64,000 bases of DNA from Candidatus Metaruminococcus caecorum (GTDB taxonomy: Bacteria; Bacillota; Clostridia; Oscillospirales; Ruminococcaceae): assembly GCA_904420045.1 (NCBI GenBank), contig CAJFTY010000012.1, forward strand, positions 27,766-91,765. Reading direction: 5' to 3'. Below, in pieces: positions 36,388 through 55,833 of this stretch. A program made the position numbers and the translations under genes. The first letter of the stretch is position 1. Every line of letters begins with the position of its first letter. A model generated the notes under the pieces. That model saw only the letters and a list, made by a program, of their open reading frames with translations. It had not been told where the DNA came from and ran no database searches.

Positions 36388-36431
36388 ATTGGATAGCGTC
36401 CTTTCTATATTCAAAAATACCAAGCCGGTGT

Positions 36432-39775: not shown

Positions 39776-39809
39776 CGAAAACCTCTCCATTCGCCAAGCT
39801 GATATCTTC

Positions 39810-39838
39810 ACCTTACACGAAAAAGACAACGTTGTCAA
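39810..39838 (-). promoter_or_regulatory. Promoter with LacI-type palindromic operator for the FGGY kinase
   Basis: On the minus strand TTGACA (39838-39833) and a weak TAAGGT (39815-39810) are 17 bases apart. The perfect 12-base palindrome GACAACGTTGTC (39825-39836) overlaps the -35 box, the usual place for a LacI-family repressor. No LacI-type regulator is encoded in the window. Confidence 0.6.
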
Positions 39839-39880
39839 CAACAAATCAGCTTCTGGGTAAAAACGCCTTTATTTTAAAAA

Positions 39881-39915
39881 GCCAAGCTCTTTCTAAAGGA
39901 GTGAAAGAGCTTGGC
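39881..39915 (-). terminator. Terminator of the Cys-rich peptide gene cluster
   Basis: Perfect 13-base arms GCCAAGCTCTTTC (39881-39893) and GAAAGAGCTTGGC (39903-39915) with TTTTTAAAAT after the stem on the minus strand, 64 bases past the last gene of the cluster. Confidence 0.9.
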
Positions 39916-39978
39916 TTGAAGTTCAGTATTGCGGCTTTCCTTATGAATGGAGTGGTGGTTTTCCCCAGCGGGTTACAT

Positions 39979-40500
39979 TTAAAAGCCATCTAAATTACAC
40001 ATTTTACGGATCTTGTCACCGGAAAGATACACCCGTTTAAATTCATGCTGAAGTAAACTTCTCACCTGTACGCTGTAAAATTTCCCCAATCGTTTTACAT
40101 CTTCTCGTAAATCGCCTTCTAAAGTGAATCGTAAAAAATCATAAATCCGTTTATAATAGCTGTTCCCAATCAAATGCTTTGCATAAATTCTATTTAACTT
40201 CATATCCACCATGCCCATATGTATTAACTGAATATATCCAATCACCAATTCCTGCGTATAGCTCTCATCAAATACAAATCCGTCAATACAAGCGTTTTGA
40301 TTGATCGTATTTATATCATACAAAGAGATAAGCCCGATGTTTTGACCAGTTTTCAAACTGTTTATGACATATAACACATTGTTTCTTTCGCGTATAAAAG
40401 TAGGCAGGGTGATATAGGGCTTTTCTTCAACCTTTTCCGTCAACTTCTCAATGCTGTCGGACGCCGTATTGGACGGAATGAGCCGAATAATTTCAGACAT
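39979..40500 (-). CDS. GNAT-family acetyltransferase in the peptide cluster
   Basis: About 173 residues, with a GNAT-like (RimJ/L-type) pattern: NIGLISLYDINTINQNACID, then a helix and LNRIYAKHLIGNSYYKRIYD, ending in DVKRLGKFYSVQVRSLLQHEF. The acetyl-CoA loop is less typical than in the gene at 15896. The start has AGAGGTG upstream. Last gene of the AT-rich cluster, 21 bases after the BtrH-like gene. It may acylate the peptide product or confer self-protection; that is inference. Confidence 0.68.
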   Translation of the reverse strand: MSEIIRLIPSNTASDSIEKLTEKVEEKPYITLPTFIRERNNVLYVINSLKTGQNIGLISLYDINTINQNACIDGFVFDESYTQELVIGYIQLIHMGMVDMKLNRIYAKHLIGNSYYKRIYDFLRFTLEGDLREDVKRLGKFYSVQVRSLLQHEFKRVYLSGDKIRKMCNLDGF

Positions 40501-40521
40501 AGTGACACCTCTTCTCTTTGG

Positions 40522-41583
40522 CTAAAAGCTTTCAAAAACCGTACGATTTAAGTCGTAGTATTCATTCAGTGTACGTTTCTCAATTTCACGCATTACATCC
40601 ATCTGGTGAAAAATACGATCCATAATTTCTTTGGTATCTCCTAAATAGTTCACGTTATATTTCACAATTAAATTAATAAAGATTTCCGCATGTCGAATAA
40701 GGTCTGTCAAACAATTGAATATATCCTCGGAACACTTTAATTCGGTATGGTCATGAATATATCTGAGCTTTCTCAACCAGTCTTTTTTATGTTCATAAAT
40801 GCAGTATGGATCCGCAAAATTAATCGCATCATGTTGTTCGCTCTGATATCTATAATAAGGTTTTATTCCCTCGTATACATCTAACCCCCACGCGATTACT
40901 TCTTCGCCGAAATGCGGACGCTCTCGGCTCAGGGTATCAACTGATTCTAGGTAATCGAGCATATGCCATTTGATTTTATCTAGATTAATTTTATAATTTT
41001 CATAGGTTGACTGTTTTAACTTGTAAAGCACGATCATATGGGATTCCATGTTTATACCGCGTATTTCATGGTTGTTGGATAATTCATCAAATATTGAGCC
41101 TCTTCCATGAAACTGAACTGAAAAATCCGAGTTATATGCACTTATCATATCATCAAATGAAACCTTAAACCGTTCTAATTTTACACCATTGTACGCGTAG
41201 GCATAAAAGAAATGTTTACTTTGGTCAAACCCAAATAAAAGGATACCGTGTAATCGAGGATATTTGATCTTCATTGTCTGAATGCGTGAATCATCGCAGA
41301 AAACAAGTACATAATAATTATTTTTTATTGCCTGAACAAAAAAATCAATGATATCTTCTCCAAAATCCAACCGATATGGAATTCGAATGCATTCGAGCGG
41401 TTCATATTCTTCACAAGATCCATAGTTATAGCGTTTTGTATAGATCCCGTTGGAATACAATTGTAAAAATTCACTGCAAAGCCAATTATCCAGATAAGGT
41501 ATTGTTGCCATAATCGACATCGGTAAAGCAATATCCGGATGGCTTGTTAGCGCAGGGGGGTGCAGCCTCAATTCTTTGAACAT
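40522..41583 (-). CDS. BtrH-like protein (second copy) in the peptide cluster
   Basis: A 353-residue soluble protein. The segment around residues 90-140 (NNYYVLVFCDD, then LHGILLFGFDQSKHFFYAYAY) has the layout of BtrH N-terminal, C39-like folds: a strand ending in acidic residues, then a His before a GFD strand. BtrH of butirosin synthesis moves an acyl group from an ACP to an amine. A Cys at about residue 36 in an LDNWLCSEF helix could be the nucleophile, but it is not in a clear motif. Excellent AAAGGAG before the start. Family call is tentative. Confidence 0.55.
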   Translation of the reverse strand: MFKELRLHPPALTSHPDIALPMSIMATIPYLDNWLCSEFLQLYSNGIYTKRYNYGSCEEYEPLECIRIPYRLDFGEDIIDFFVQAIKNNYYVLVFCDDSRIQTMKIKYPRLHGILLFGFDQSKHFFYAYAYNGVKLERFKVSFDDMISAYNSDFSVQFHGRGSIFDELSNNHEIRGINMESHMIVLYKLKQSTYENYKINLDKIKWHMLDYLESVDTLSRERPHFGEEVIAWGLDVYEGIKPYYRYQSEQHDAINFADPYCIYEHKKDWLRKLRYIHDHTELKCSEDIFNCLTDLIRHAEIFINLIVKYNVNYLGDTKEIMDRIFHQMDVMREIEKRTLNEYYDLNRTVFESF

Positions 41584-41657
41584 ACAACTACTCCTTTCTG
41601 CTGATATAGCAATTGATTTCGCATGTACAATCTTTAATCTACATAGATAGACAGTAC

Positions 41658-42320
41658 TTAACGACTATATGTTAAAATCTGATCTTCTATGGCTTGTTCC
41701 TTCATTTCAATCCCGTCAACGAAACAATGCTGCGCATTCCTTCCACAAATTGAAATGATCGAATCATCCTTTGTCCACGTTTGAATCTGTTTGGCGAAAA
41801 AATCTTCCATTACATCAAATGAATGCAAGGGTATTGACAAGCCTTTACCAGTGTATTTTACATACGCCTCTTTTTTTGTCCATATTTCAAAAAATCGGTT
41901 ATCTGAACTTTGGTTTGATTTCGATATATAACTCCATTCCCTGGGAGTAAAAAATCTTTGTGCAATTCGAAAATCCGCTGCTTTCAGCTTTTCTATATCA
42001 ATTCCGACCGGGTCGTCGGATACAGCAACTGCAATCGTATTGCTGCTATGTGATAAATTAAAATGTAAAGCAGGATTTGTCTTTAAAAAAGGCTTCCCTA
42101 AAGCCTGCTTTCCAAAAACAAGATCATTATTTTTTATTTGCAGCGCCGTACAAAGGACTGTTCGAACCAGCAGCTCTGAATACAAGCTAATTTTTTTCTC
42201 CAAACCAACGCAAAGCATTTGTACTTTATATCGTCTTTCCTTAGAAACATATGGTAAAAAGAAGTTTAGCTTTTGTAAAAGGTCTTTTTCGTCAATTTTT
42301 GCATAATACCATTGAAACAC
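41658..42320 (-). CDS. Sfp-type 4'-phosphopantetheinyl transferase
   Basis: Activates carrier proteins by attaching phosphopantetheine. Motifs in order: GKPFLKTNPALHFNLSHSSN near residue 75, VGIDIEKLKAADFRIAQRFF near 107, and FFEIWTKKEAYVKYTGKGLS near 145, with the Mg-binding Asp and Glu and catalytic Glu/Lys in place. About 220 residues. The GTG at 42320 is chosen because GGGGG lies 8 bases upstream; an ATG at 42338 has no ribosome-binding site. It should prime both the PCP of the neighbouring adenylation protein and the cluster ACP. Confidence 0.92.
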   Translation of the reverse strand: MFQWYYAKIDEKDLLQKLNFFLPYVSKERRYKVQMLCVGLEKKISLYSELLVRTVLCTALQIKNNDLVFGKQALGKPFLKTNPALHFNLSHSSNTIAVAVSDDPVGIDIEKLKAADFRIAQRFFTPREWSYISKSNQSSDNRFFEIWTKKEAYVKYTGKGLSIPLHSFDVMEDFFAKQIQTWTKDDSIISICGRNAQHCFVDGIEMKEQAIEDQILTYSR

Positions 42321-42391
42321 ATTCCCAGCCCCCCGCATGATGTCATGGAGCTTTATAAAAACGTCCTAATTTTCCATTTGTAAATAACAGA

Positions 42392-44038
42392 TTATGAAGG
42401 CAGTCTATGTTCCACATACTCGACCATTGACCGAATGGTTGGATACGCGTCTATAAACAACATGTCATCCTCAAAACTAAACTTGTATTTATTTTCCAAT
42501 TCTGTAATAATTTCAATAAAAGTTAAAGAATCCACGCCAATGCGAACAAAATTTGAATCTAACGTAACATTATGTATCCGAGGATCTAATATAGCTAGAA
42601 TTGCTTCAAATATCTGCCTTTGCATAGGATTTAAGTCTCTTACATTTTCAAGAGTAAAATCTTCTTTTTCGATTTCCTCGCATTCCGGTACTCTTTTTCG
42701 ATCAATTTTCCCATTTTCTGTATAAAAAAATTTTTTGACCTGCTTAAAAGTTATGGGAATCATGTACGAGGGTAATTTACGAGATAAAAAATCCATTAAC
42801 ACTTTTGGTTGAATATAATAATCGCTTACATAAAACGCCTCCAGCATAAGATCCGTTTCACTTGTTTTCAACGTTGTTACTATGGATTGTTTCACGCCTT
42901 CAAATTGGTTAAGATTTGATTCGATTTCTTCAAGTTCAATCCGATGGCCGCGTAGTTTCACTTGGTTGTCCGTGCGGCCCAAATACTCTAAGCTGCCGTT
43001 CGGCAGAATTCGTCCAACATCGCCGGTTCGATAAACTCTGATATTTGGTTTTTCCGGCAAATAGACAAATTTTTCCGCCGTTAAGTCTTTACGGCCGACA
43101 TATCCGCTGGCCACTCCTTTTCCTGCAATGCAAATTTCGCCAGCTTGTCCATCTGGAAGAATCGACAGCTGGTTATTTACGATATAAATTTTTGTATTTT
43201 TAATGGGATATCCAACGCTTATCTGATCCTCGTGCGTAAGATCACATATGGTCGACCAAATGGTCGTTTCCGTCGGGCCGTACATGTTATATATTTTGGC
43301 GGTGGTTTTTTTCTGTAAATCACGAAGCATTGTGAGAGGAAACGGTTCTCCCCCAATCATGATCTCTTTCACATGCTTTAAGCAAGAAAGTGTCTTGTCA
43401 TAGTTTAACAGCAACTGCATTCTGGAAGGCGTCATTTGAATCATATCAACCGCTTGATCTTGAATGAGTTGTGCCATGAGCTTGGGATTATATTGTTCTT
43501 TCTCGTTTGCAAGCACAACTGTAAGACCTTTCCATACAGCGGCAATACTTTCAAGCAAAAAAATATCAAATGATACAGTTGTAAAACAGGCGATACGTTT
43601 TCCAGCAGAAAAATCAATAACTTCTGAAACGCCATCCATAAAGTTAAAAAGCGCATCCCGTGTAATTTTTACACCCTTCGGATAACCGGTAGAACCGGAT
43701 GTATACAAAATATACGCTATGTTTTCAGATGGCGTCTTATTGCCGTGCCCGTTATTATAAGACAAAGGATCTAAAAAAACGTCTGTATTATTATAAATAA
43801 AATCCGCCTTGGTATCGTTTATAATATATTGAATGCGCTCAATCGGCAGCGTTGGATCAACGGGTATAAACGTCCTTTTTTGGTTCATAAGATGTAAAAT
43901 TGTAAATATTAGTTCTTGATTACGTTTCATGAGCAAGACAGTGCGTCCGTAATTTTTATCCGGTAATCTGCCTATAAACTCATGAAAATCATGAATATCA
44001 TAATTTTGATTTTCAAATATGATATGTAGGTTATCCAT
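42392..44038 (-). CDS. Free-standing NRPS adenylation-PCP didomain, glycine-like code
   Basis: A 548-residue protein. The adenylation domain (about 1-450) has ILYTSGSTGYPKGVKI, NMYGPTETTIW, YRTGDVGRILPNGSLEYLGR, NQVKLRGHRIELEEIE and TENGKIDRKR. A PCP domain (about 465-545) has its Ser in GVDSLTFIEI. Aligning by eye to GrsA, the specificity positions read D-I-L-Q-M-G-M-I-W-K, close to the glycine code DILQLGLIWK. No condensation or thioesterase domain follows. The ATG at 44038 has GGGAG 9 bases upstream. It likely loads an amino acid, perhaps glycine, for transfer by a separate enzyme. Confidence 0.9.
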   Translation of the reverse strand: MDNLHIIFENQNYDIHDFHEFIGRLPDKNYGRTVLLMKRNQELIFTILHLMNQKRTFIPVDPTLPIERIQYIINDTKADFIYNNTDVFLDPLSYNNGHGNKTPSENIAYILYTSGSTGYPKGVKITRDALFNFMDGVSEVIDFSAGKRIACFTTVSFDIFLLESIAAVWKGLTVVLANEKEQYNPKLMAQLIQDQAVDMIQMTPSRMQLLLNYDKTLSCLKHVKEIMIGGEPFPLTMLRDLQKKTTAKIYNMYGPTETTIWSTICDLTHEDQISVGYPIKNTKIYIVNNQLSILPDGQAGEICIAGKGVASGYVGRKDLTAEKFVYLPEKPNIRVYRTGDVGRILPNGSLEYLGRTDNQVKLRGHRIELEEIESNLNQFEGVKQSIVTTLKTSETDLMLEAFYVSDYYIQPKVLMDFLSRKLPSYMIPITFKQVKKFFYTENGKIDRKRVPECEEIEKEDFTLENVRDLNPMQRQIFEAILAILDPRIHNVTLDSNFVRIGVDSLTFIEIITELENKYKFSFEDDMLFIDAYPTIRSMVEYVEHRLPS

Positions 44039-44077
44039 CAAACTTATCTCCCATATCTTTACAGGCTCAGTGATTGC

Positions 44078-45865
44078 CTATATATAATATTGCGATTGAC
44101 TATGAAACATTTTATAATATAAACCGCTTTCATTCTGCATCAACTCAGTATGCGTTCCCTCCTCCACTATCTTGCCTTCGTGAAACAGCAAAATTCTGTC
44201 TGAAAAACGGCAGCTGGAAAGTCGATGCGATATATAGATAACGGTTTTGTTATGAATAATATCATTAAAACTTTGCATGATTTCACACTCCATCACTGGA
44301 TCCAGCGCTGAAGTTGGCTCGTCTAAAAATACAAGTGCAGCATTTTTATACGCAGCTCTGGCAATTGCAATTTTTTGCATTTCTCCTCCTGAGAATTCAA
44401 TTCCATCTTCTTCAAATATTTTATATAAAGTTGTGTTAATGCCGTTATCCAACTGATTAATTTTATCGTCAAGGGATAATCGGCTTAATAATTCATAAAT
44501 CGTTTCGTCCGAAGCAGTTTGAGCAGTTTTTAAAGCTATGTTTTCTTTAATTGTAAACGCATAATTTTTATAATCTTGAAAAACCGCGCTGAAAAATTTT
44601 ATGTATTCATCATAACGGTAGTCGTTAATATCGACTCCGTTAAGGCGTATAACGCCGGAAGTCGGCCGGTATAAACGAGTTAGCAGTTTTATAAACGTTG
44701 ACTTTCCCGCTCCATTCATTCCAACGATGGAAATTCTTTCATTTGACCGAATTGTTACGCACAAATCATCCAATGCCAATGCTTCGGTATTAGGATATGC
44801 AAAAGAAACATGCTCAAATTGAATTTCAAAATTTTGTGGATCAATATCCATTTCACGGGTGCCATCTTTGGATTTGGGCTGGATATCCAAATACTCAAAA
44901 AAAGGTTCCAAATACTGACACATATTTGAAAATTCGAAAAATTGAGATATTAATCCCGAAATTGACCTACCAAAATTATTTACTGCATTAATGTACATTG
45001 TAAAATCGCCGATGCTTATGCTCTGTATAAGCACCCTGTAACACATATAGATGTAAATACATATATTTTCTATATTTAAGTTGATCGACCCAAACGCTTG
45101 GTATTTTTGCTGGTCATAAGATAATTTTTTAAAGACCGATAGATTTTTCGCAATGAATTCATCGATTTTCTTTAAAATCATAGGGCGCATATTATAGATG
45201 CGGATATCTTTGCCTGCTGTAAAATCGGTGGTAAGGGTACTATAATAGTTAAAGATACGGTTAATTGGTATTAATTCTTGGTTTGCCGCAAAGGAACTTT
45301 GATTTTGTTTTTTGAATATTTTTGAACTTAAAAAAAGAACCAATCCAATAAATGCAATTACCAAAATATTCAGTGTGGCAATAATTGTGAGCAAACCGCA
45401 GATGGTAATGATATTCTGAACAATATTGCGCAAGCTTGACATCATTCGAACCAATGCGTTTTGATTGCGTATAACAAACATTGCGCGCTCTTTTAATTCT
45501 AAATTCTCTCCTTGTTCTACTTGGTCGAAGTCGAGTTCAAGGCTTTTTTCACCTAAAATAATATCAAGTTTCGCAGATACTTTTTCATTTTGCACTTCAC
45601 AGTAATAGCCGATGATTTGAATAATGAGATTAAACAGAAACCCTATTCCGACTGTCAATGCGACAAATAGAACCAGTCTTCCAGCATTTTGGTCTCCAAG
45701 CAGCTCGTCAATGATATATTTAGGGAATATAATATTGACAAAAGAGATTGTAGATGACAAGACTATGCTTAATAAAACAAATGGAAGATATAATTTAGAA
45801 ATTTGATTTATAATTTTTATAAACTTAATTGCGATTCGCAAATTATATTTTAATGTCTGTTTCAT
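44078..45865 (-). CDS. ABC exporter half-transporter (membrane plus ATPase domain), second subunit
   Basis: A 595-residue fusion of a six-helix membrane domain (about 1-320) and an ATPase domain: Walker A GMNGAGKST near 380, signature FSGGEMQKIAIARAAY near 490, Walker B ALVFLDEPTSALDP, then the switch His in YISHRLSSC. No C39 peptidase domain is present at the N-terminus. Its ATG directly abuts the stop codon of the paralogous upstream gene, so the two likely form a heterodimer that exports the mature peptide. Confidence 0.92.
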   Translation of the reverse strand: MKQTLKYNLRIAIKFIKIINQISKLYLPFVLLSIVLSSTISFVNIIFPKYIIDELLGDQNAGRLVLFVALTVGIGFLFNLIIQIIGYYCEVQNEKVSAKLDIILGEKSLELDFDQVEQGENLELKERAMFVIRNQNALVRMMSSLRNIVQNIITICGLLTIIATLNILVIAFIGLVLFLSSKIFKKQNQSSFAANQELIPINRIFNYYSTLTTDFTAGKDIRIYNMRPMILKKIDEFIAKNLSVFKKLSYDQQKYQAFGSINLNIENICIYIYMCYRVLIQSISIGDFTMYINAVNNFGRSISGLISQFFEFSNMCQYLEPFFEYLDIQPKSKDGTREMDIDPQNFEIQFEHVSFAYPNTEALALDDLCVTIRSNERISIVGMNGAGKSTFIKLLTRLYRPTSGVIRLNGVDINDYRYDEYIKFFSAVFQDYKNYAFTIKENIALKTAQTASDETIYELLSRLSLDDKINQLDNGINTTLYKIFEEDGIEFSGGEMQKIAIARAAYKNAALVFLDEPTSALDPVMECEIMQSFNDIIHNKTVIYISHRLSSCRFSDRILLFHEGKIVEEGTHTELMQNESGLYYKMFHSQSQYYI

Positions 45866-47668
45866 CTATTTATGTTCCTCTCGATAACTTTTCGCCTGGA
45901 GTTCAAACAACTCATAGTATGCTCCTTTTTTACGAATCAGTTCTTGATGTGATCCTTCCTCAAGAATACTTCCATCTTGAAGCATTAAAATCGTATCGCA
46001 AAATCGTGTGCTTGCCAAACGATGAGAAACAAAAATATATGTATTCCCCGGCTCTTTCATTTGATTAAGCAATTGATAAAATTGGTCCTCTGCAAGAGGA
46101 TCCATGGCCGCTGTTGGCTCGTCCATAATAAAAATGTTTCCATCTTTATATAAGGCTCTTGCCAACGCTACCCGCTGACTTTCTCCTCCAGACAGTTCGA
46201 TGCCATCATAATCAAGCGCTTTTAACAACGAAGTTTCCGCTTTTTTAGGCAGTGCATTTATCTTATTTGCCAAACCAACTTTATTGATATACTTCCAAAC
46301 TGCATCTAAATCAATATTTTGTTGACCCTGCAACGCGATATTCTCATAAATACTGAATGCGAATAGTTTGAAATCTTGGAACAGAACTGAAAACAGATTA
46401 AAATACTGTTGTCTGTTCAATTTGTTTATATTGATCCCATTCAAAAGAATTTCACCTTCGGTCGGGCTGTATAACCCTGTCATCAGTTTAATAATAGTCG
46501 TTTTACCCGCACCGTTATGACCAACTAAAGCAACACGCTTTCCATATTGAAATTTATAAGAAAAATTTTTGAGCACCATCTGGCTGCTGTTCGGATATTG
46601 AAAGGACACATTACGAAATTCTATGGTATACGGCATTTCCGGGATCTTCTCTTCATGTTCTGAATCGGAATTCTGCAAACTCTCGATAAATTTACGATAA
46701 TCATTAATGTATATGTTCTGCGTCTGAATATACGCAATACTATCGAGAACTCCCTGTATTTGTCCGGTCAACTGATTTGCAACATTAAAATATACAGAAA
46801 AATCACCGATTGTAATATTGTGTGAGAGAAATCTTATAATTAAATAAGCATATATGATCCCTTCTCGAAACAACAAAAAAACAATATTGAGCAGGTTAAC
46901 AAAAAAATGTTTTTTCTGCAAAAGGTTTTTATTCATGATCCGCTCTTTTATCAAAGCTGAATACTTATCAATGATCCATCGGCGAATTCCATAAAGACGG
47001 ATCTCCTTGCCGTATCGGACATCATTGAGCAGATCAGACACATAAGTCGTCTTACGATCGGTTTTTGCTAATTTTTCTTCATTATCATGCTCAAATTTTT
47101 TTATTTTTAAATTAATGTAATAAATTAGCAAGGAGCTTAGCAGAAGATATGCTAAAATAAACGGATTTAAATAAAGGGTAAGAGATAAAAAGCCGGCAAA
47201 AGTAATGATGCTGCTGATAAAGGAAAACATTTTTCTGTAGATTCCTTCAATGCCATCATTATTTCCGCTTAAAGCTTTAGATGACATATGCACTTGATTC
47301 AAAACATCCGGATCTTCTGTATGTTCAAAATTCAGCTTCATGCAAACGTCGCTGTGTTCCCGAACATATTTGAAGCGAAGAATTGTAAACTGTGGCTCAA
47401 TTTTCGCTCGTAAAAAGGTCATAATTAAGTCAAAGGTAATCATAAACAAAAAGAATGCAGTTAAAATAATGGTTAAAACATCAATTCTGCGCTCTCCGGT
47501 CAATTCATCGAGGATAAATTTAGGAAACAAGACGAATATAAACGGATACAAACTTTCAAAGAGAATTAAAATACCATTGAAAATATACAAAGACTTTTGG
47601 TATAACCATCCTCTTTTAAACAAATACCAAATATTCTGAAGAGAATTATAGTAATTTTTATGTTTCAT
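45866..47668 (-). CDS. ABC exporter half-transporter (membrane plus ATPase domain), first subunit
   Basis: A 600-residue fusion of membrane domain (about 1-320) and ATPase domain with Walker A GHNGAGKTT near 385, signature LSGGESQRVALARALY near 493, Walker B IFIMDEPTAAMDP and FVSHRLASTRF. Like its neighbour it lacks a C39 leader peptidase domain. It begins 13 bases after the third radical SAM gene. A GGTGG site lies 9 bases before the ATG. Confidence 0.92.
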   Translation of the reverse strand: MKHKNYYNSLQNIWYLFKRGWLYQKSLYIFNGILILFESLYPFIFVLFPKFILDELTGERRIDVLTIILTAFFLFMITFDLIMTFLRAKIEPQFTILRFKYVREHSDVCMKLNFEHTEDPDVLNQVHMSSKALSGNNDGIEGIYRKMFSFISSIITFAGFLSLTLYLNPFILAYLLLSSLLIYYINLKIKKFEHDNEEKLAKTDRKTTYVSDLLNDVRYGKEIRLYGIRRWIIDKYSALIKERIMNKNLLQKKHFFVNLLNIVFLLFREGIIYAYLIIRFLSHNITIGDFSVYFNVANQLTGQIQGVLDSIAYIQTQNIYINDYRKFIESLQNSDSEHEEKIPEMPYTIEFRNVSFQYPNSSQMVLKNFSYKFQYGKRVALVGHNGAGKTTIIKLMTGLYSPTEGEILLNGININKLNRQQYFNLFSVLFQDFKLFAFSIYENIALQGQQNIDLDAVWKYINKVGLANKINALPKKAETSLLKALDYDGIELSGGESQRVALARALYKDGNIFIMDEPTAAMDPLAEDQFYQLLNQMKEPGNTYIFVSHRLASTRFCDTILMLQDGSILEEGSHQELIRKKGAYYELFELQAKSYREEHK

Positions 47669-47681
47669 TCTCCAACGCCAC

Positions 47682-49133
47682 CTATTTTAGTGCCTCTCTT
47701 TTTTGCAGCATATTTTGCAAATAAGCGTATAATTCCGGATATTCATTTGCCATCGTGTCCAAGTAAAGCAACGACAAATGAATCACATGTTGTTCAAGTA
47801 TGCAAATTACTTGATCGGGTTTCTCAATATCTTTATTCGTAAGATAGCAGTTATGATAACAGTCACCCCCGCAAACATACTTCGCCCAGCATTCACGACA
47901 ATGTTCATTGGATATCACAGATAGTTGTTTGAAAATTTGACATTTTTCAAGACCAGTCAGGACATTTCCTATTTTAAATTCTTTCATACCTACAAAACTA
48001 TCACAAGGATACATATCTCCATTTGCCGCAATACTGACCTTGTTTTTTCCCGCCTGGCATCGATTTACAACAAGATACCGCATCAACAAACGCCTTATAA
48101 TCTTGCCGGCAAAATCATTATCATTTAAAATCATTTTTACATAGTCAACAGATCCACTTTCTAGTTCCTTTAAAAAAAAGGCAAACAGATCTGTGTATTT
48201 CTCTTTCATTGCTTCGACATTATTCAAAGTGATCGCATAAGGAGAATCTTTCTTAAGACGTACAATTTTCATCTGTACATTTTTAAAACCTGCTTTACGA
48301 TGATGTTTAAGAATTTCAACCAAGCTTGGAGTTTGATTGGTAACGACAACCATTCCCCAAATATCCTTTAACCGCTTTGAATACTCCTTGGAAGAATGTA
48401 TTTCGTCAATCCATCGTATAATTCTGTCATAGGTCCCTCTGCCGTGGGCATCCTTACGCATGGCATCCTGTATTGGCTTATCCCCGTCGAGACTGATTCC
48501 GATGTTAATATGATTTTCATTGAAATAATTCAGAATATCCGGAGTAAAACACGTCCCGTTGGTACACACCCATATCTCCATCGGCTTGCCAGTTTCTGTA
48601 TATAACCGGTCGGAAACTTCTTTAACTGTTTCAATAATATCGAAATTTAAAAGGGGCTCTCCCCCGCTGACAAAATCAATTCGATATTTTTTACAGTCTG
48701 GCAGATATTCATAATAAATAAATCGTAACGCCTTTTCCACCATTTCCTTTGTAAATTTCTTTTCTTCTTCTTTAAAAACTTTTCCTTGTTCCGCAAAACA
48801 ATATGAGCATTTTAAATTGCATCTATGAACCGGCGGAAGCGAGATTAACCCAGTAGCATATTCTGACGGCAGACTAACAACGCGTTTTTCATCTGAAAAA
48901 AACGTGTTGTTTTTTGCTAAGTTTTCAAGTTCTTCCATGGCATCAATCGAAGCCTGTCCATATTGGCTATACAAATTTTCCCATGTGATTTTATTCTCTA
49001 AATAATCAAAACAATTCGTAAAAAGCGTATCTAATTCTGCGAAAACAAGATTTTCATAATCAAATATGTAATATTTATCTTGATTCGTAAATCTGTGAAA
49101 ATGAGGTGTTTTAAAATTCTTTTTGTCAAACAT
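47682..49133 (-). CDS. Radical SAM/SPASM peptide maturase (third of three, SCIFF/QhpD-like layout)
   Basis: A 483-residue enzyme. The N-terminal 90 residues resemble a precursor-binding winged-helix region (YYIFDYENLVFAELD). The 4Fe-4S CxxxCxxC is C105-C109-C112 in CNLKCSYCF, followed by VSGGEPLLNF. The SPASM domain has CQAGKNKVSIAANGDMYPCD and CRECWAKYVCGGDCYHNC for two auxiliary clusters. This layout is that of thioether-forming (ranthipeptide/SCIFF) maturases. It is separated from the two other maturases by the precursor, an unknown and a BtrH-like gene, and probably carries out a different step. Confidence 0.92.
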   Translation of the reverse strand: MFDKKNFKTPHFHRFTNQDKYYIFDYENLVFAELDTLFTNCFDYLENKITWENLYSQYGQASIDAMEELENLAKNNTFFSDEKRVVSLPSEYATGLISLPPVHRCNLKCSYCFAEQGKVFKEEEKKFTKEMVEKALRFIYYEYLPDCKKYRIDFVSGGEPLLNFDIIETVKEVSDRLYTETGKPMEIWVCTNGTCFTPDILNYFNENHINIGISLDGDKPIQDAMRKDAHGRGTYDRIIRWIDEIHSSKEYSKRLKDIWGMVVVTNQTPSLVEILKHHRKAGFKNVQMKIVRLKKDSPYAITLNNVEAMKEKYTDLFAFFLKELESGSVDYVKMILNDNDFAGKIIRRLLMRYLVVNRCQAGKNKVSIAANGDMYPCDSFVGMKEFKIGNVLTGLEKCQIFKQLSVISNEHCRECWAKYVCGGDCYHNCYLTNKDIEKPDQVICILEQHVIHLSLLYLDTMANEYPELYAYLQNMLQKREALK

Positions 49134-49136
49134 TTT

Positions 49137-50168
49137 CTATTCCCCCTCAGCCATTTTGTTGATATGTTCTCCTAATTTTTTTTCGTCCAGTAGGATTGTC
49201 TGCAAAGCCATTGGAATTTTACCTGTGTTTTCTTTTTTTTCAGCTTTACTGTATTTCATAATAATAAATAAAACATTTTGATATTTGGCTAATAAAGCCC
49301 CTATTTCCTCGCAAATATTTGCATACATATTGCCGTGATTTTGCGAATACTGCTGGATATAAAAATACAAAATTCGCTTTTGAATATACAACAAAAAAAT
49401 AGAATTGTGGAGTTTGCGCAAAAACAAATGATGAAAGCCAATCTGGTTCATCTGTTCCTGAAGCATTTGTATCAGCTTTTCAAATGCTAAAATTCCAAAA
49501 TACTTATCAGCATGCAAAAGACTAAAGGTGGGCTTGTAAAAATTCTGATATATGTTTTTCATGTTTTGCAGAAAGACCGGCGTTTCTTCCTTGTCCTGTA
49601 AGGCCCTTGCAATATCTGGCTGAAAGGCCCAGGATTGATAGTGAGGATAGATGTGGCTAAATGGATTATCCTCTGACTGATACTGAGAACCACGAGCCAA
49701 TTCTAAATCAGTTTTATTTAATAAGCCCTTATAATAATGAGGTTCATACCAGTCTACAATCAGATAGGCATCTTCCATTTCCTTGCATATAAAAATAGCA
49801 TGCGAGCCGTGATATTTATGGTAAGCCAATTGATAAGGAAGATAAAACGTATCCACTGTAACGATTACAGGTGTTTCATCTTCTAATGCTTTTGATAAGT
49901 ACTCGTTTGCCATTTGGCGATGATCGAACTGTTTTCTGATCTCATATGGACGAAGCAACGATATTGTATCAAGGCTGGCAATATCATTATCAATGGCACA
50001 TTTGCATAGATCGGTTGCCGCTGTTAATGAGAAGTGCATTGCTATATCAATATAAAGATAAGCATTTGGCACTCCATAATATTGAAGCAGCTGATAAAAA
50101 CAATTTTTCAAACAATGATAATGAAAATATGAGTTATATGAATGCTCCGATTGAAAAAATGCAGTCAT
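49137..50168 (-). CDS. BtrH-like acyltransferase/C39-like protein (first copy)
   Basis: About 343 residues. The N-terminal half shows the BtrH N-terminal pattern: a helix with HCLKNC (Cys near residue 19), then PVIVTVDTFYLPYQLAYHKY, then HGSHAIFICKEMEDAYLIVDW carrying the His and Asp. In butirosin synthesis BtrH is an ACP-dependent acyltransferase with a papain/C39-like fold; the same fold also serves leader peptidases. With an ACP and a PCP in this cluster, acyl or aminoacyl transfer is the first guess, and leader cleavage the alternative. The ATG at 50168 is used; a GTG at 50180 is possible. Confidence 0.72.
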   Translation of the reverse strand: MTAFFQSEHSYNSYFHYHCLKNCFYQLLQYYGVPNAYLYIDIAMHFSLTAATDLCKCAIDNDIASLDTISLLRPYEIRKQFDHRQMANEYLSKALEDETPVIVTVDTFYLPYQLAYHKYHGSHAIFICKEMEDAYLIVDWYEPHYYKGLLNKTDLELARGSQYQSEDNPFSHIYPHYQSWAFQPDIARALQDKEETPVFLQNMKNIYQNFYKPTFSLLHADKYFGILAFEKLIQMLQEQMNQIGFHHLFLRKLHNSIFLLYIQKRILYFYIQQYSQNHGNMYANICEEIGALLAKYQNVLFIIMKYSKAEKKENTGKIPMALQTILLDEKKLGEHINKMAEGE

Positions 50169-50172
50169 AAGG

Positions 50173-50967
50173 CTACACACTTTCTAACAATTGATAGAGT
50201 AATTGTTTTTGATTTTGATAGGTTTTTATAATCATATTTTTATCCGGTTCAACTGGCTCAAAGTTATCTAGCGTATAGTATATTTTTTGTTGTGCTTGCA
50301 GCCGTAAAAAGAGCATGGATGGATTCAGAAATTGTAATTCAGGGGTATTTTTTACCGATTGACTATCCAGTCCATAATAAAATCCGTCGTTAAAAACACA
50401 ATTCCAGATTCCATTATTTGCAATTTGATTAAAATCAATCAGTCCATTTATAATATGAATCGTATTACAAGAAATTCCATGATAATAAAGTGCCGCCAAA
50501 AGGCAACTTCCTAATCCGTTCATCCCAATTCCATTTACATTAAATAGCGCCCCCTGCTCTTTTAGATACTGAATACCTATGAGCTGTGAAGCAATATTTT
50601 TTTTCCAGAATGGAAGTCCCTCTCTTTGAAATTCTCGATCAAGTTCCTTATTCTGATAATAGCTGTGTTTTGCAAAAAAAACACGAACATTATTTGTCAC
50701 TAGATGATGGATTAAATAATCATCTAAACCGCCTTCCGCCATTTCATCCTGAAAATTCAAAATGTATATAGGCGTAAATTCTGTGCAATGATTGGGTAAT
50801 ATATCATGTATTTCTAAAAACTCCTGGTTGGAAGATCCATACAAACATACATTGCGTGTAAGATCGTTTAACTTTTCCGTTTTCTGTGATTGTAACGAAA
50901 GGTTTTTCCAATCGTTTTCACAATAAGAATATAGAAATTTACAAAAACTTTCGTATGAGATATTCAC
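50173..50967 (-). CDS. Unknown cluster protein, possibly alpha/beta-hydrolase-like
   Basis: A 264-residue soluble protein. The central segment LFNVNGIGMNGLGSCLLAAL followed by YYHGISCNTIHIINGLIDF looks like the strand-nucleophile-elbow-helix unit of an alpha/beta hydrolase, but the elbow reads G-M-N-G-L-G with Asn where Ser is expected. I do not recognise a family. A strong AAAGGAG precedes its GTG start. First gene after the two precursor peptides, so it may bind or process them. Confidence 0.7.
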   Translation of the reverse strand: MNISYESFCKFLYSYCENDWKNLSLQSQKTEKLNDLTRNVCLYGSSNQEFLEIHDILPNHCTEFTPIYILNFQDEMAEGGLDDYLIHHLVTNNVRVFFAKHSYYQNKELDREFQREGLPFWKKNIASQLIGIQYLKEQGALFNVNGIGMNGLGSCLLAALYYHGISCNTIHIINGLIDFNQIANNGIWNCVFNDGFYYGLDSQSVKNTPELQFLNPSMLFLRLQAQQKIYYTLDNFEPVEPDKNMIIKTYQNQKQLLYQLLESV

Positions 50968-51038
50968 GTTTATCTCCTTTCAAAGGCATTATGTCCGCTC
51001 TATTATATTAACTTATAAGATGTTTGCCCACTTAGAGT

Positions 51039-51143
51039 CTAGCAGCCATTACCGTTGTTGTATACGTTGCAGCAGGGCTGAAAAACATTACAACAGAAAT
51101 TTTTTTCACCAATATTCGCTTTTTTTAACTGAATGACCTGCAT
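51039..51143 (-). CDS. Cys-rich precursor peptide 2 (34 residues)
   Basis: Small gene, ATG at 51143 and TAG at 51041-51039. The leader-like half is MQVIQLKKANIGEKN and the core-like half is FCCNVFQPCCNVYNNGNGC, with five Cys at positions 17, 18, 24, 25 and 34. It differs from the adjacent paralogue at four leader and two core positions; the last 15 residues are identical. It lies 20 bases after precursor 1 and directly downstream of two radical SAM genes. AAGGTAGAAGAA precedes the start. No double-Gly cleavage site. Confidence 0.88.
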   Translation of the reverse strand: MQVIQLKKANIGEKNFCCNVFQPCCNVYNNGNGC

Positions 51144-51163
51144 TTCTTCTACCTTCTTTCTAT

Positions 51164-51268
51164 TTAGCAGCCGTTGCCGTTATTGTATACGTTGCAGCAG
51201 GGTTGAAAATTATTGCAGCAATAATTTTTTTCACCAATATTTGCCTTTTTCAGCTTTAATACTTTCAT
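51164..51268 (-). CDS. Cys-rich precursor peptide 1 (34 residues)
   Basis: Small gene, ATG at 51268 and TAA at 51166-51164, with GGAG 11 bases upstream. The leader-like half is MKVLKLKKANIGEKN and the core-like half YCCNNFQPCCNVYNNGNGC; Cys at 17, 18, 24, 25 and 34. The region KKANIGEKN is identical in both peptides and is a likely recognition sequence. The core is rich in Cys and Asn, fitting sulfur-to-carbon crosslinks by the SPASM enzymes (sactipeptide or ranthipeptide type), though the actual modification is not known. Confidence 0.9.
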   Translation of the reverse strand: MKVLKLKKANIGEKNYCCNNFQPCCNVYNNGNGC

Positions 51269-51340
51269 GGTATGTATTTCTCCTTCCAAACAATAAGCGG
51301 ACATATGCCTTTATCAAACAGATCGAATCTGTCTGATAGC

Positions 51341-52618
51341 TTAAGAATCACTATATTTTGCTAAAATATATTCTTTTACCATGATAGAATGCGTAGGCTT
51401 CATGCAAAATTTTTCTCCTAAATCGTGCACATTCTTCATAAAATAGCAGCCGCCGGAGCAAACTCCCACAAGGCTACACGAGTAGCATTTATCTGGAATT
51501 TCATGCATACCTGGACGATCCGGATAAAAACCGTTTGCGTTTATGTCTCCTACACAGTAACCTTCCATTCCCGCATAAGATGGACAATTATACAATGTAC
51601 CATCCGGACATATTACAAAAAAGTTTTTTGTTCCATAGCCGCAAAAGGTTTCCCACATTCTAAAATTGAAATGGTATTTTCTTAACGTTTGGAAAATTTC
51701 TGGCACATATTGCATAACTTTTCCTGTGTGTCCGGTACGATTAAGATCGTCTATCGGGGGATCTACAGGGGCAACGCCAATTGATACAAACTCATTGAAT
51801 TTGCGTTCTGCCAAATATTGAATCAGTTCTTTAATATGCGGAGCATTCTCTTGGTCAATGTTAATTCGAATTGTAATTCTCAAACCGAAATCTCTGCACA
51901 TTTCTATATTTTGAATGATTTTATCAAAACTGCCGTTACCATTTGATCGTATACGCCGCTTATCATGTACGTTTTTCGGGCCATCAATTGTGACCTGAAT
52001 AGAATTTAATCCGACGCTCTTAAGTTCTTTCAAATTTTGTTCTGATAAGTTATAGCAGTTTGAAATCATATTATATTCCAACTCTATATCTCTGTCTTTC
52101 AGCTCATTTAACTTTTTAAAGAACTTGAGATTTTGTTTATGTCCCAGCATGGGTTCTCCGCCAAAAAGGTCAACCGTCACATTTTTTATTTGATTGTCTA
52201 TCGCATATCCGATAAGCCAATTTGCCGCATTTTCGGTTTCTAAATCGGAAATAACGTTTTGCGGATTCATGCAATCGTGATCTGTGGCAGAAACAATACA
52301 ATACGGACAACGAAAATCACAGTTAAACGTAGGGATAAAATACATAACAATTCTTGATTCCTGATCTCTGTCCCTTCGAACCTTAGTGAACAATTCTTTT
52401 TCCTTGTATGTATCCGGAACAATATATTCATCAATATACAGCTCTGAAATAGCATCCTTCATTTCTTCACTAATCATTTCCTGTAGATTGCCGTTTAAAT
52501 AACGGTTTATTTTTGATACATGTTCCGTTTTTAATTTATTGACTCCTCGAGTGACACTATTAAATAATATCGTTGAATCCTGATCTTCATAAAAATTAAT
52601 AAATTTTGACCATCTCAT
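51341..52618 (-). CDS. Radical SAM/SPASM peptide maturase (second of three)
   Basis: A 425-residue enzyme. The MRWSKFINFY N-terminus is the type seen in clostridial Cys-rich peptide maturases. The 4Fe-4S motif is C100-C104-C107 (CDFRCPYC), then DLFGGEPMLGH. The SPASM domain has CPSYAGMEGYCVGD and CYSCSLVGVCSGGCYFM plus a final Cys. It begins 4 bases after its paralogue ends, and the precursor genes follow 70 bases later. GGGGAG precedes the ATG. The pair may act as a heterodimer or on successive sites. Confidence 0.93.
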   Translation of the reverse strand: MRWSKFINFYEDQDSTILFNSVTRGVNKLKTEHVSKINRYLNGNLQEMISEEMKDAISELYIDEYIVPDTYKEKELFTKVRRDRDQESRIVMYFIPTFNCDFRCPYCIVSATDHDCMNPQNVISDLETENAANWLIGYAIDNQIKNVTVDLFGGEPMLGHKQNLKFFKKLNELKDRDIELEYNMISNCYNLSEQNLKELKSVGLNSIQVTIDGPKNVHDKRRIRSNGNGSFDKIIQNIEMCRDFGLRITIRINIDQENAPHIKELIQYLAERKFNEFVSIGVAPVDPPIDDLNRTGHTGKVMQYVPEIFQTLRKYHFNFRMWETFCGYGTKNFFVICPDGTLYNCPSYAGMEGYCVGDINANGFYPDRPGMHEIPDKCYSCSLVGVCSGGCYFMKNVHDLGEKFCMKPTHSIMVKEYILAKYSDS

Positions 52619-52622
52619 ACAA

Positions 52623-53855
52623 CTAACTCCCCATTTTGTTCTCTAGTTCTTTGTATTTTATTTTTAACAAAGCTTCTAAATAATCTTTTCTGCAAACCTT
52701 TTTATGTCCAGATTGGGTTGAGTTTAAAATGCAGCGGTAAGGACATCCGCCGCAACATAAGCCAACTAAATTGCAATTCATGCAGGATTCCCATGGCGCC
52801 AGATTCATCTGTTCCTGATACTGCGATGTTAATTTCTTTGATTCAACGTTTCCGACGCAATATTGTTTTCTGCCAACCAAGGATGGACATTTATATATGT
52901 CACCATTCACATTGACCATATACCAGTATTCGCTCATCATCCAGCAGTTGTTTAGTTCACCGAAAGCAATATTAAAACCATCCGCTTGCGCTTGTGATAT
53001 TATTTTTACAATTTCACTTAATACGTCCGGGTGTGGCATCCCGTCAGTAATCGTGTCATTCATACAAATCGCTAGGAATTTTTCCAGCTGCAACTTTTTT
53101 AATAAGGTTAATAGTTTTATAATTTCCTTGTAGTTTTGCTGATCGACGTTTATTCTGATCACAAAACAAATTTGGTTATTCCATTGGCGTATTTTTAAAA
53201 TATTGTTTAGTATAGTTGAAAATGTGCCGGAACCATCTTTATATTGACGTCTTGCGTCGTGTATTTTTGAAGGCCCGTCAATTGTAATTTGATAAGAAGA
53301 AATATTATGCTGATATAATTGTTTGGCAATTGTTCGATCTAACAGTACTCCATTGGTAATTACATTCATTGTAACGATCAATTCTGTCTTTCTCAGCAAA
53401 GCTGCAATCATTTCCATTGCCGGGACATTCATCAGCGGTTCTCCACCGGTTAGAGTAACATGAATTTTTTTGACATTCAGTTCTCTTGCCTTTGCTGTCA
53501 GCCAGATAACGGTACGCTCACACATCTCTTTATCCATGTATTCTGGCCTGGAATTTGAAAGGCTGTCTTTCTCAAAGCAGTATGGACAAGCTAAATTGCA
53601 GTCATTGGTTACAAATATCCAACATGATAAAGTATCCGATGAATGCAGTTTTTCCTCTATTTTTTGTTTGGCCACAGATTCTTCTTGTATTTCATCTGCA
53701 AGTAAAAATCCATTTTCCTCTAACTGAGCTTGAATTTCCGTTTCAAATGGCATTTGCAACTCTTTTTCTGTAATCAATATTGTATTGTAAATGGAATTAT
53801 AATGAAAAAATGTTTCGTCTTGAGACCAGCTAAAGTTATATTTTGACCATTTCAT
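52623..53855 (-). CDS. Radical SAM/SPASM peptide maturase (first of three)
   Basis: A 410-residue paralogue of the next gene. MKWSKYNFSW is at the N-terminus, the 4Fe-4S motif is C86-C90-C93 (CNLACPYCF), then TLTGGEPLMNVPA, and a SPASM domain with CPSLVGRKQYCVGN and CMNCNLVGLCCGGCPYRC. Its start codon overlaps the TGA of the ACP gene as ATGA, so the carrier protein and the maturase are translationally coupled. That coupling is the strongest sequence sign that the thiotemplate and radical SAM halves belong to one pathway. Confidence 0.93.
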   Translation of the reverse strand: MKWSKYNFSWSQDETFFHYNSIYNTILITEKELQMPFETEIQAQLEENGFLLADEIQEESVAKQKIEEKLHSSDTLSCWIFVTNDCNLACPYCFEKDSLSNSRPEYMDKEMCERTVIWLTAKARELNVKKIHVTLTGGEPLMNVPAMEMIAALLRKTELIVTMNVITNGVLLDRTIAKQLYQHNISSYQITIDGPSKIHDARRQYKDGSGTFSTILNNILKIRQWNNQICFVIRINVDQQNYKEIIKLLTLLKKLQLEKFLAICMNDTITDGMPHPDVLSEIVKIISQAQADGFNIAFGELNNCWMMSEYWYMVNVNGDIYKCPSLVGRKQYCVGNVESKKLTSQYQEQMNLAPWESCMNCNLVGLCCGGCPYRCILNSTQSGHKKVCRKDYLEALLKIKYKELENKMGS

Positions 53856-54166
53856 TTCGTATCACCGAATAAGAACATTTTTGCTTCCTGTTTTTTTGTA
53901 TCCCGAACCTGTTCGATTGCAACTTCCTCATTTACAAAACGGATCATATCGTCAACCGTTTTGATTTTTTGCGCTTCATCTTCTGTAATGGTGATATGAT
54001 AGGTTGTTTCGATATTAATTATTAACTCTACCATTTCAAGTGAAGAAAGTCCCAATGTTTTTTGGTCGACATGAGTTTGATCCCCTTTCAATAAATATTC
54101 TCCTGTGAAGTTTATGTTTTCATCGAAATAGTCGCTTACGATACTCTGAAATTCTTGCAAATCCAT
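53852..54166 (-). CDS. Acyl carrier protein of the peptide cluster
   Basis: A 104-residue protein, a carrier domain with the phosphopantetheine Ser at about residue 42 in LGLSSLEMVELI (the usual Asp before Ser is itself Ser). A 25-residue tail follows the four-helix core (QVRDTKKQEAKMFLFGD). The ATG at 54166 has AGAGGTG upstream; longer readings overlap the bactofilin-like gene. With the cluster PPTase, A-PCP protein and BtrH-like proteins it forms an acyl-loading and transfer set resembling the butirosin side-chain logic. Confidence 0.88.
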   Translation of the reverse strand: MDLQEFQSIVSDYFDENINFTGEYLLKGDQTHVDQKTLGLSSLEMVELIINIETTYHITITEDEAQKIKTVDDMIRFVNEEVAIEQVRDTKKQEAKMFLFGDTK

Positions 54167-54188
54167 TGTGTAAACACCTCTGTCTTTT

Positions 54189-54668
54189 TTAAATCTTTTC
54201 TGTTTTTTGAATAATGGTTTCTTCGGATTGAGTATACTGATTTTTATAAAATAAATGTTCGATCCTGCATTTCTTTTTAAATTCTGCTGTTGCCGCCCGG
54301 ACTTCATTGCAGGTTAAATCTTCGGCTGACAACCGATCGCATTGAATTTGATGAATGTTTAAAATACCATTATCTTCTTTTCGTACAATGGAGATTTCCT
54401 TCGCCTCCATTTGCTTCACTTTGACGTTTCCGCTCACATCCAACTTAATAATCTCCGCTTCAATGGATTGTAAACAGTCTATTCCTCCTTTAATATAAAT
54501 TTCTTTTGCTTTTAAATGTCCATGAATTTGAATGATTCCTATAATTTTTACCGTTTCCGCATTCACATTGCCCTTTAGGTTTGCAACACCTGTTACATGA
54601 ATATTTTTGTAATGGCCTTCCCCATATTGAACAAACCCCATTGAACTTTCTTCATCAAAAAATTTCAT
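54189..54668 (-). CDS. Bactofilin-like (polymer-forming) protein, first gene of the peptide cluster
   Basis: A 159-residue protein whose core (about 15-125) is made of short repeating strands such as NIHVTGVANLKGNVNAETVKI and IIQIHGHLKAKEIYIKGGID (parts quoted), the right-handed beta-helix pattern of bactofilins. The C-terminus is charged and Thr/Lys-rich. GGAGGATTGCT precedes the ATG. Heading a biosynthetic cluster is unusual for a cytoskeletal-type protein; it may scaffold the enzymes or exporter at the membrane. Confidence 0.72.
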   Translation of the reverse strand: MKFFDEESSMGFVQYGEGHYKNIHVTGVANLKGNVNAETVKIIGIIQIHGHLKAKEIYIKGGIDCLQSIEAEIIKLDVSGNVKVKQMEAKEISIVRKEDNGILNIHQIQCDRLSAEDLTCNEVRAATAEFKKKCRIEHLFYKNQYTQSEETIIQKTEKI

Positions 54669-54760
54669 AGCAATCCTCCATTATATTTTTGTAATCTATA
54701 TATTGCACAATAAAATATGTTTTTTCAACTTATTTCTGTGCAACTTTACCTTTTGTGACA

Positions 54761-54789
54761 ATAATATCATAGCTTATATTATTTGTCAA
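54761..54789 (-). promoter_or_regulatory. Promoter of the Cys-rich peptide cluster
   Basis: TTGACA (54789-54784) and TATTAT (54766-54761), 17-base spacer, minus strand, 93 bases before the bactofilin-like start. The -35 box is one arm of an inverted repeat TGTCAATA (54784-54791) / TATTGACA that also includes the -35 box of padR, a likely shared operator. Confidence 0.82.
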
Positions 54790-54811
54790 TATTATATTTT
54801 CGTGAATAGTA

Positions 54812-54840
54812 TTGACATTAAAACCTTATTTTTCTAAAAT
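54812..54840 (+). promoter_or_regulatory. Promoter of padR
   Basis: TTGACA (54812-54817) and TAAAAT (54835-54840) with a 17-base spacer, divergent from the cluster promoter. Confidence 0.8.
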
Positions 54841-54906
54841 ACAGATGTGAATCGATCTCTCAACTGAGTTCATTCATGTCCATTCCTTTTAGAGGTTGTT
54901 ACAGGC

Positions 54907-55242
54907 ATGAGAACTTCAGATAACTTAAAACGTGGTTCAGTTGAGCTGATGCTCCTTACATTATTGAAAGAGAAAGACATGTATGGTTATCAATTGTCTC
55001 AAGAATTGGGTAGGCGAAGTAGTGAACGATATAAACTACAAGAAAGTTCTATGTACCCGATTCTATACCGAATGATTGACAAAGGCTATATCAGTGACCG
55101 GCGGGAACTGGTTGGCAAGCGTAAATATCGCGTATATTATCATATTGAGACAGAAGGGCTTAACTATTTAGAACAGATAAAAAAAGAATATCTTTCAATT
55201 ACCGAAGGTATTTTAGAAATATTGGGGAAAAGGATTGACTAA
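54907..55242 (+). CDS. PadR-family transcriptional regulator
   Basis: A 111-residue winged-helix protein: LKRGSVELMLLTLLKEKDMYGYQLSQ at the N-terminus (quoted in part), SSMYPILYRMIDKGYI for the wing and recognition region, and RKYRVYYHIETEGL. Divergently transcribed from the peptide cluster across a 238-base gap with paired promoters, so it is the likely local repressor, possibly sensing the product or envelope stress. Confidence 0.93.
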   Translation: MRTSDNLKRGSVELMLLTLLKEKDMYGYQLSQELGRRSSERYKLQESSMYPILYRMIDKGYISDRRELVGKRKYRVYYHIETEGLNYLEQIKKEYLSITEGILEILGKRID

Positions 55243-55243
55243 T

Positions 55244-55615: not shown

Positions 55616-55792
55616 TCGGAATCGGTACTATATACAAAATGCGGGTAAGAAGCAGCTAAGAAGTAAAATAAACATATTGCATTGTTTGTTTCTGGCTAAA
55701 GTGCTCCTGTCCCTTGTTTCATTTTTTGTAAATTGGCAGATCATGGCAACGCGGCGTGACACGCATTTCCAGTATTAAAAGACTTTGCTCAT

Positions 55793-55833
55793 TTAAGAAG
55801 AATCCCCCGGCGAAGCCGGGGGATTCTTCTTAA
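55793..55833. terminator. Perfect 19-base-pair terminator hairpin
   Basis: Arms 55793-55811 and 55815-55833 pair perfectly around GAA, with a GC-rich core and A/T-rich feet. It closes the padR unit. The bases 55616-55792 before it hold no gene I can support. Confidence 0.9.

Follow-up and report, generated by a model that had tools for sequence, protein, structure and literature searches.

A fifteen-gene cluster on the minus strand of a 64,000-nucleotide stretch from Candidatus Metaruminococcus caecorum (contig CAJFTY010000012.1; this whole stretch is the window, and its positions serve as coordinates) joins Cys-rich precursor peptides and three radical S-adenosylmethionine (SAM) maturases to an adenylation and carrier apparatus with a BtrH-family protein, BtrH1. 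The cluster may make a ribosomal peptide, crosslinked by radical chemistry, on which BtrH1 would place a single amino acid taken from a carrier, a reading to which we assign a probability of roughly 0.5. What is directly observed is the gene content with its family assignments, the five-Cys conservation of the precursors, and a core that recurs in two further species; from these we infer whatever goes beyond gene identity. At slightly less than even odds, the product would represent a new class: three radical SAM enzymes would crosslink a ribosomal peptide, and a BtrH-type acyltransferase would supply it with a non-ribosomal amino acid from an adenylation and peptidyl carrier protein (A-PCP) dedicated to this task, so that the two kinds of peptide synthesis come together in a single molecule. 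The cluster would then have arisen by joining a Cys-rich radical SAM cassette to an A-PCP/BtrH cassette that is found separately in genomes of the same class.

The two halves stand together in the loci closest to the window. A scan of 84,980 species genomes, which required exact matches to two short peptide patterns and can therefore miss relatives, returns 15 loci for the second maturase, rSAM2, two at 54-55% identity and 13 at 24-28%. In both close loci, from L. phytofermentans KNHs2131 (L004) and C. ruminicola (L005), where rSAM2 is more than 50% identical, the core runs in one direction. The order is acyl carrier protein (ACP), rSAM1, rSAM2, three precursors, the hydrolase-fold gene orf264, BtrH1, rSAM3, A-PCP and two ABC genes; the window departs from this in having two precursors, in placing the A-PCP behind the ABC pair and in carrying additional genes. 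The preliminary description had proposed one hybrid pathway, not a set of chance neighbours, and had suggested looking elsewhere for precursor, BtrH, A-PCP and SPASM genes side by side. Halves that never occur together are not what is found: both close genomes keep them together, in nearly the same order.

Further away, the halves come apart. None of the 13 distant rSAM2 loci has a match to the A-PCP, BtrH1, ACP or precursors of the window (E ≤ 1e-3), and five of these loci are only 5.7-8.4 kb long, so that further genes may lie beyond. When 391 genomes of the class to which the window belongs are searched with BtrH1, matches come from the window's own genome and three others (four places, 21-33% identity: L036, L037, L038 and L039, with L036 and L037, from the same genus, nearly duplicating each other). 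An adenylation gene is present at all four distant places, adjoining in three and about 5 kb off in the fourth; rSAM1-3 and the precursors are unmatched at all four (tblastn, E ≤ 1e-3). Because the distant maturase loci have no A-PCP or BtrH matches and the distant BtrH places no maturase or precursor matches, the two halves occur separately, and are joined in this cluster family, among the loci seen. Could one operon then serve two products, a ribosomally synthesized and post-translationally modified peptide (RiPP) and an unrelated small aminoacyl metabolite? The separation of the halves in the more distant loci would suit such an arrangement, but in all three clusters the carrier genes interleave with the maturase genes, the ACP lying before rSAM1 and BtrH1 between the precursors and rSAM3, and we consider two products distinctly improbable.

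A B12-binding radical SAM gene is present at L036 (by Pfam) and L037, and two weak blastp matches to rSAM3 (E 6.7e-4 and 0.002) fall within it; L036 also matches orf264 weakly over 55 residues (E 0.008). At L038, the A domain adjoining the BtrH1 relative has the pocket D-I-L-S-M-G-M-V-W, one of nine positions off that of the window; those of L036, L037 and L039 differ more. L038:2815-16315 is a separate cluster from the same class, which encodes carrier proteins along with two adenylation proteins and two members of the BtrH family; rSAM1-3 are unmatched in it.

All fifteen open reading frames (ORFs) of the unit are found, as the preliminary description had stated, from 54668 down to 39979; with corrected starts, neighbouring genes are -8 to 74 bases apart. 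They lie in a low-GC island of about 16 kb (35.2% GC; flanks 57.4% and 51.4%; best two-break fit about 39760-56120). Gene identities hold for 12 of the 15, and three fall under family thresholds. The two Cys-rich precursors, three SPASM-type maturases, ABC pair, ACP, A-PCP and phosphopantetheinyl transferase (PPTase) described before are all upheld.

Precursor A (51164-51268, with its start at the inner ATG at 51268) and precursor B (51039-51143) have 34 residues each, and with three in KNHs2131 and three in C. ruminicola they make a set of eight. Twelve positions are invariant in all eight: M1, V3, L6, K8, G12, E13 and the pairs CC, CC and GC. The leader ends in Gly-Glu (G12-E13), and the five core cysteines (C17, C18, C24, C25 and C34) lie in the pattern E-[KRM]-[NS]-[FY]-C-C-[ND]-x-[FY]-x(2-3)-C-C-[ND]-x-[FY]-x(3-4)-G-C; Lys14 is present in six of the eight. 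In a six-frame search of all collected sequence, matches to this core pattern are confined to the three clusters (and overlapping copies), and a profile search finds the genome itself only, as one of 297 genomes at E ≤ 1e-4 and one of 398 at E ≤ 1e-3. The two window precursors have no match in Pfam (two of eight scanned), and the four scanned against the curated NCBIfam models (the window's two and one each from L004 and L005) have none there. Between C. ruminicola precursors 2 and 3, L005:11552-11614 encodes a leaderless Cys-rich core, CCNSATYCNNSSTGC, followed by a stop, which is perhaps a decayed fourth precursor.

The first maturase, rSAM1 (52623-53855; Radical_SAM 63.9 bits), has SPASM-type C-terminal cysteines and is 44-47% identical to the copies in the relatives. 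Its closest NCBIfam models are CefB (179.1 bits) and the geopeptide maturase (174.2 bits), each under cut-off. rSAM2 (51341-52618) belongs to a distinct family of 14 proteins, the window included, in a database of 5.8 billion proteins; they are 36-100% identical, the next matches fall to 28%, and the radical SAM cysteines and C-terminal cysteines are invariant in all 14. The two enzymes are related to each other (hhalign probability 100). Relatives of rSAM2 are rare in genome samples: at E ≤ 1e-40 one of 61 genomes (the window's own), and at E ≤ 1e-50 one of 24 (C. ruminicola), one of 397 (KNHs2131) and one of 394 (its own), with at most four candidates scored per genome in the two largest samples and some genomes in several samples. 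The rSAM2 profile finds no relatives in 24 stretches from viral contigs.

The third maturase, rSAM3 (47682-49133), lies on the SCIFF/PapB (ranthipeptide) side of the radical SAM/SPASM superfamily. As in SCIFF/ranthipeptide systems, it is a near full-length relative of PDB 5wgg, which we take to be CteB (residues 12-454, E 1.6e-47). Unlike them, it stays under the cut-offs for the SCIFF maturase TIGR03974 (214.2 bits vs 425) and PapB (200.1 vs 340), and the scanned precursors match no NCBIfam or Pfam model. PADLOC, run on six proteins, gives a general viperin/radical SAM match to rSAM3 as its sole match. A CxxxCxxC core and a Cys-rich C-terminus beside a short conserved precursor agree with a broad definition of RiPP maturation by radical SAM/SPASM enzymes.

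The carrier half begins with the ACP, a free-standing acyl or aminoacyl carrier (53852-54166; PP-binding 23.4 bits, cut-off 20.8, scanned as the longer ORF). Its start is very probably the inner ATG at 54166, giving 104 residues beside the 106 and 108 of the relatives. An ATGA overlap of the ACP with the first maturase, earlier said to couple the two halves, is indeed present in the window (-4 bases), but the same overlap is not seen in the relatives, where the genes are adjacent, with their likely ATG or GTG starts. The SSLE motif of the ACP is common to the window, KNHs2131 and C. ruminicola, and the phosphopantetheine serine motifs of ACP and PCP, read from the alignment, are kept in all three clusters. 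The A-PCP (42392-44041; AMP-binding 190.6 bits, PP-binding 44.9 bits) passes the amino-acid adenylation model TIGR01733 of non-ribosomal peptide synthetase type (AA-adenyl-dom; 329.6 bits, cut-off 317.4) and has a fused PP-binding domain; Pfam finds no condensation domain in it or in any of the 15 genes. Its nine pocket positions, D-I-L-S-M-G-M-I-W, are identical in the three clusters and come with the usual Lys. The pocket is presumably closest to the glycine code, with changed positions, and because of this resemblance our guess is that the substrate would be a small amino acid. A glycine specificity suggested by LgrA at the top of the PDB list was dropped, as that score sums two domains and the pocket of the second, compared by eye, differs. 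The PPTase is encoded at 41658-42338 (ACPS 73.1 bits, cut-off 25).

How might carriers and radical enzymes act on one peptide? In nosiheptide biosynthesis, NosI adenylates indolic acid, NosJ carries it and the radical SAM enzyme NosN methylates it on the carrier, while hydrolase-like NosK releases the acyl unit; the study did not see the unit pass to the precursor in vitro (PMC5585349). Similarly, the window combines an adenylase, a small carrier, an alpha/beta-hydrolase fold and radical SAM enzymes that would serve one ribosomal peptide, but it is a radical SAM-type Cys-rich peptide cluster, whereas nosiheptide, as the same text describes it, is a thiopeptide with an indolic acid unit (PMC5585349). 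The carrier half could thus build a substrate for a radical enzyme, one maturase acting on an aminoacyl unit held by ACP or PCP before it joins the peptide, in the way of NosN on NosJ-bound indolic acid; the ACP does adjoin rSAM1 in all three clusters. However, rSAM1 and rSAM2, which are mutually related, find their best counterparts in peptide maturase models along most of each protein, and NosN itself is described as a class C methyltransferase (PMC5585349), so that such a role is unlikely. Carrier-based acylation of a RiPP has a precedent in nosiheptide. Thiopeptide core machinery consists of YcaO and dehydratase genes, and no such Pfam domain occurs among the 15 genes. We know of no BtrH or amino-acid A-PCP in the nosiheptide system.

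BtrH1 (49137-50180) is the candidate for the transfer step. The preliminary description had named two BtrH-like proteins, and this one is supported: its BtrH_N score of 39.4 bits exceeds the cut-off of 29.7, as do those of L004 (49) and L005 (30), whereas the second, the 353-residue product of 40522-41583, has no family match and resembles BtrH by weak co-linear alignment only (hhalign probability 1.5 to BtrH1; a two-sequence model was useless, pLDDT 35.5). Cys23, Cys27, His127 and Asp143 of BtrH1 are invariant in all eight sequences, the window included, and among solved structures its profile matches AziU3 and Azi29 (E 8e-5), the alignment being confined to profile positions 85-168. In butirosin, BtrH transfers a carrier-bound acyl unit to an amine, and the window shares with butirosin BtrI/BtrH a BtrH_N protein and a free-standing carrier. 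Unlike butirosin, with its aminoglycoside acceptor and ATP-grasp loading, it has an adenylation domain and a peptide.

The neighbouring orf264 (50173-50967) encodes a 264-residue protein with a conserved alpha/beta-hydrolase fold, whose likely nucleophile elbow carries Asn: in a structure model, of which only the secondary structure was used, Asn150 falls between a strand (144-149) and a helix (152-162). The window protein has no His after residue 200 and the L004 copy has one; a homologue search returns a single entry, 98% identical. The model suggests that orf264 is likely a pseudo-hydrolase lacking its nucleophile. In this it differs from NosK, described as releasing the acyl unit from its carrier (PMC5585349), and since the nucleophile is probably missing, a NosK-like acyl transfer by orf264 becomes less likely.

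The proposed pathway can be put together from these parts. The PPTase would arm ACP and PCP, and one small amino acid, activated by the A domain, would be loaded onto the PCP of the same protein. The three maturases would crosslink the precursor core, thioether formation being likely for rSAM3. BtrH1, whose invariant Cys, His and Asp resemble those of papain-like enzymes, would accept the aminoacyl group from the PCP, directly or via the ACP, and acylate the peptide, perhaps at the N-terminus newly exposed behind the invariant Gly12; the side chain of a lysine (Lys14), or a Cys, could be the acceptor instead. In this scheme orf264, likely without a nucleophile, might be a binding or gating partner, and the ABC pair (half 1, 45866-47668; half 2, 44078-45865) would export the product.

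Several points weigh against this pathway. The product and the transfer step are predictions, and the acceptor site of the added unit (N-terminus, side chain or Cys) is a guess. Genomic context comes from three clusters only, about 11 of the 14 rSAM2-family proteins being without it; among the others, one is taken to be the C. ruminicola protein and one to stand for that of KNHs2131, with two differences noted by eye. The C. ruminicola cluster may be inactive through decay, or mis-sequenced, because in that draft (L005:11777-15023) rSAM3 is broken up into two ORFs and a 180-residue ORF is the sole match to orf264. The PPTase, GNAT-like and bactofilin-like genes are unmatched in the stretches around the two relative clusters (blastp E 1e-3 for the bactofilin-like gene), and the 353-residue gene is matched among relatives only distantly, by a counterpart after the second ABC gene in C. 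ruminicola (25% identity). Finally, the L004 BtrH1 also passes the Peptidase_C39_2 cut-off (25.2 vs 24), and no protease other than BtrH1 was noticed in the shared core. BtrH1 might therefore be a C39/papain-like leader peptidase cutting after Gly12, with A-PCP and ACP doing something else. Gly12-Glu13 is invariant, and none of the four ABC proteins scanned, the two of the window among them, has a peptidase domain. Yet the distant BtrH1 relatives sit with adenylation genes where maturases and precursors are unmatched, and one neighbouring A domain, at L038, has nearly the pocket of the window; a peptidase role is accordingly rather doubtful, and aminoacyl transfer by BtrH1 is preferred.

A similar published gene set is that of the CLI_3235/CcpM sactipeptides. 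The SacP23 cluster has a TIGR04068 maturase (CcpM), a TIGR04069 acyl-carrier-related protein and a Cys-rich precursor and, like the window, an ABC transporter; unlike the window, its eight-gene table shows one maturase and no adenylation, BtrH or PPTase gene (PMC10731318). The best TIGR04068 score in the window is 131.3 bits (rSAM3; cut-off 500), and its ACP reaches 15.0 bits with TIGR04069 (C. ruminicola 17.1; cut-off 70). Membership in the CLI_3235/CcpM, SCIFF or PapB systems was rejected, all models being under cut-off. Might the carrier proteins have a structural role and take no part in acyl chemistry, as may hold for the unexplained acyl-carrier-related protein that accompanies CLI_3235 sactipeptides? 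The TIGR04069 precedent (PMC10731318) and the weak similarity of the ACP to that model would allow it, but the kept phosphopantetheine serine motifs in ACP and PCP of all three clusters, and the presence of a PPTase and an adenylation domain in the window, make it very unlikely.

The preliminary description knew of no pathway with this combination. No published cluster with the same gene set was found in literature searches, which reach few subscription papers, but the nosiheptide genes and the TIGR04068/TIGR04069/CLI_3235 sets, as far as their sources describe them (PMC5585349; PMC10731318), are partly similar. Nor was any literature linking BtrH with a RiPP found, subscription papers lying mostly outside the search. 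In goadvionin and lipolanthine a carrier-borne acyl unit, there a polyketide chain, is joined to a ribosomal peptide of lanthipeptide or linaridin-type core. The window differs from both in having an A-PCP, a BtrH protein and three radical enzymes. Work on RiPPs and on non-ribosomal peptides mostly keeps the two apart, and this cluster would be a compact chimera with small, expressible proteins. Radical crosslinking coupled to adenylation, carrier and BtrH functions points to a possible general strategy by which ribosomal peptides could receive residues that the genetic code does not provide, and the BtrH family, known from aminoglycoside tailoring, would gain a possible peptide substrate.

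GC content per gene is 33-37% across all 15 genes, and the clusters of the relatives have 36.3% and 30.2%. This resemblance in composition makes acquisition of the island from a low-GC bacterium probable. An empty-site comparison with one genome of the same genus gives a single 83-base match at 81% for the left flank and none for the right, and plasmid searches with BtrH1 and with the island give no matches.

Two end genes, like the second BtrH-like gene, had been named too confidently. The GNAT-like protein (39979-40500) scores 17.4 bits with Acetyltransf_3, under the cut-off of 25.4, and the 159-residue bactofilin-like protein (54189-54668) scores 14.2 bits with Bactofilin, under 27.9; neither is confirmed. 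The likely operon promoter (54761-54789, minus strand; TTGACA-17-TATTAT with an extended -10, a consensus match only) is the top-listed scan match (11/12), but such matches number 84 vs 68.7 ± 8.7 in shuffles and are barely enriched. The possible intrinsic terminator (39881-39915, minus strand) has a 15-pair stem, a 9-base loop and -23.9 kcal/mol, with the short T run TTTAAAAT directly 3' of the stem, but is absent from the terminator scan's list.

Divergent from the cluster, on the plus strand, lie a PadR-family regulator (54907-55242; 53.5 bits, cut-off 27) and an adjoining DUF6120 protein (55244-55615; 36.9 bits, cut-off 27). The pair (54907-55615) falls a little beyond the coordinates given in the preliminary description but is inside the low-GC island, has the intergenic promoter region in common with the cluster and is possibly its regulator. 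Directly outside the island, a cobalamin riboswitch lies on the minus strand at 38187-38380 (Rfam 67.5 bits). The next long minus-strand ORF past it, 36432-37757, has no Pfam match at E ≤ 1e-5, and the neighbouring region at 32080-36423 encodes a 1447-residue surface-protein-like product with Listeria-Bacteroides repeats.

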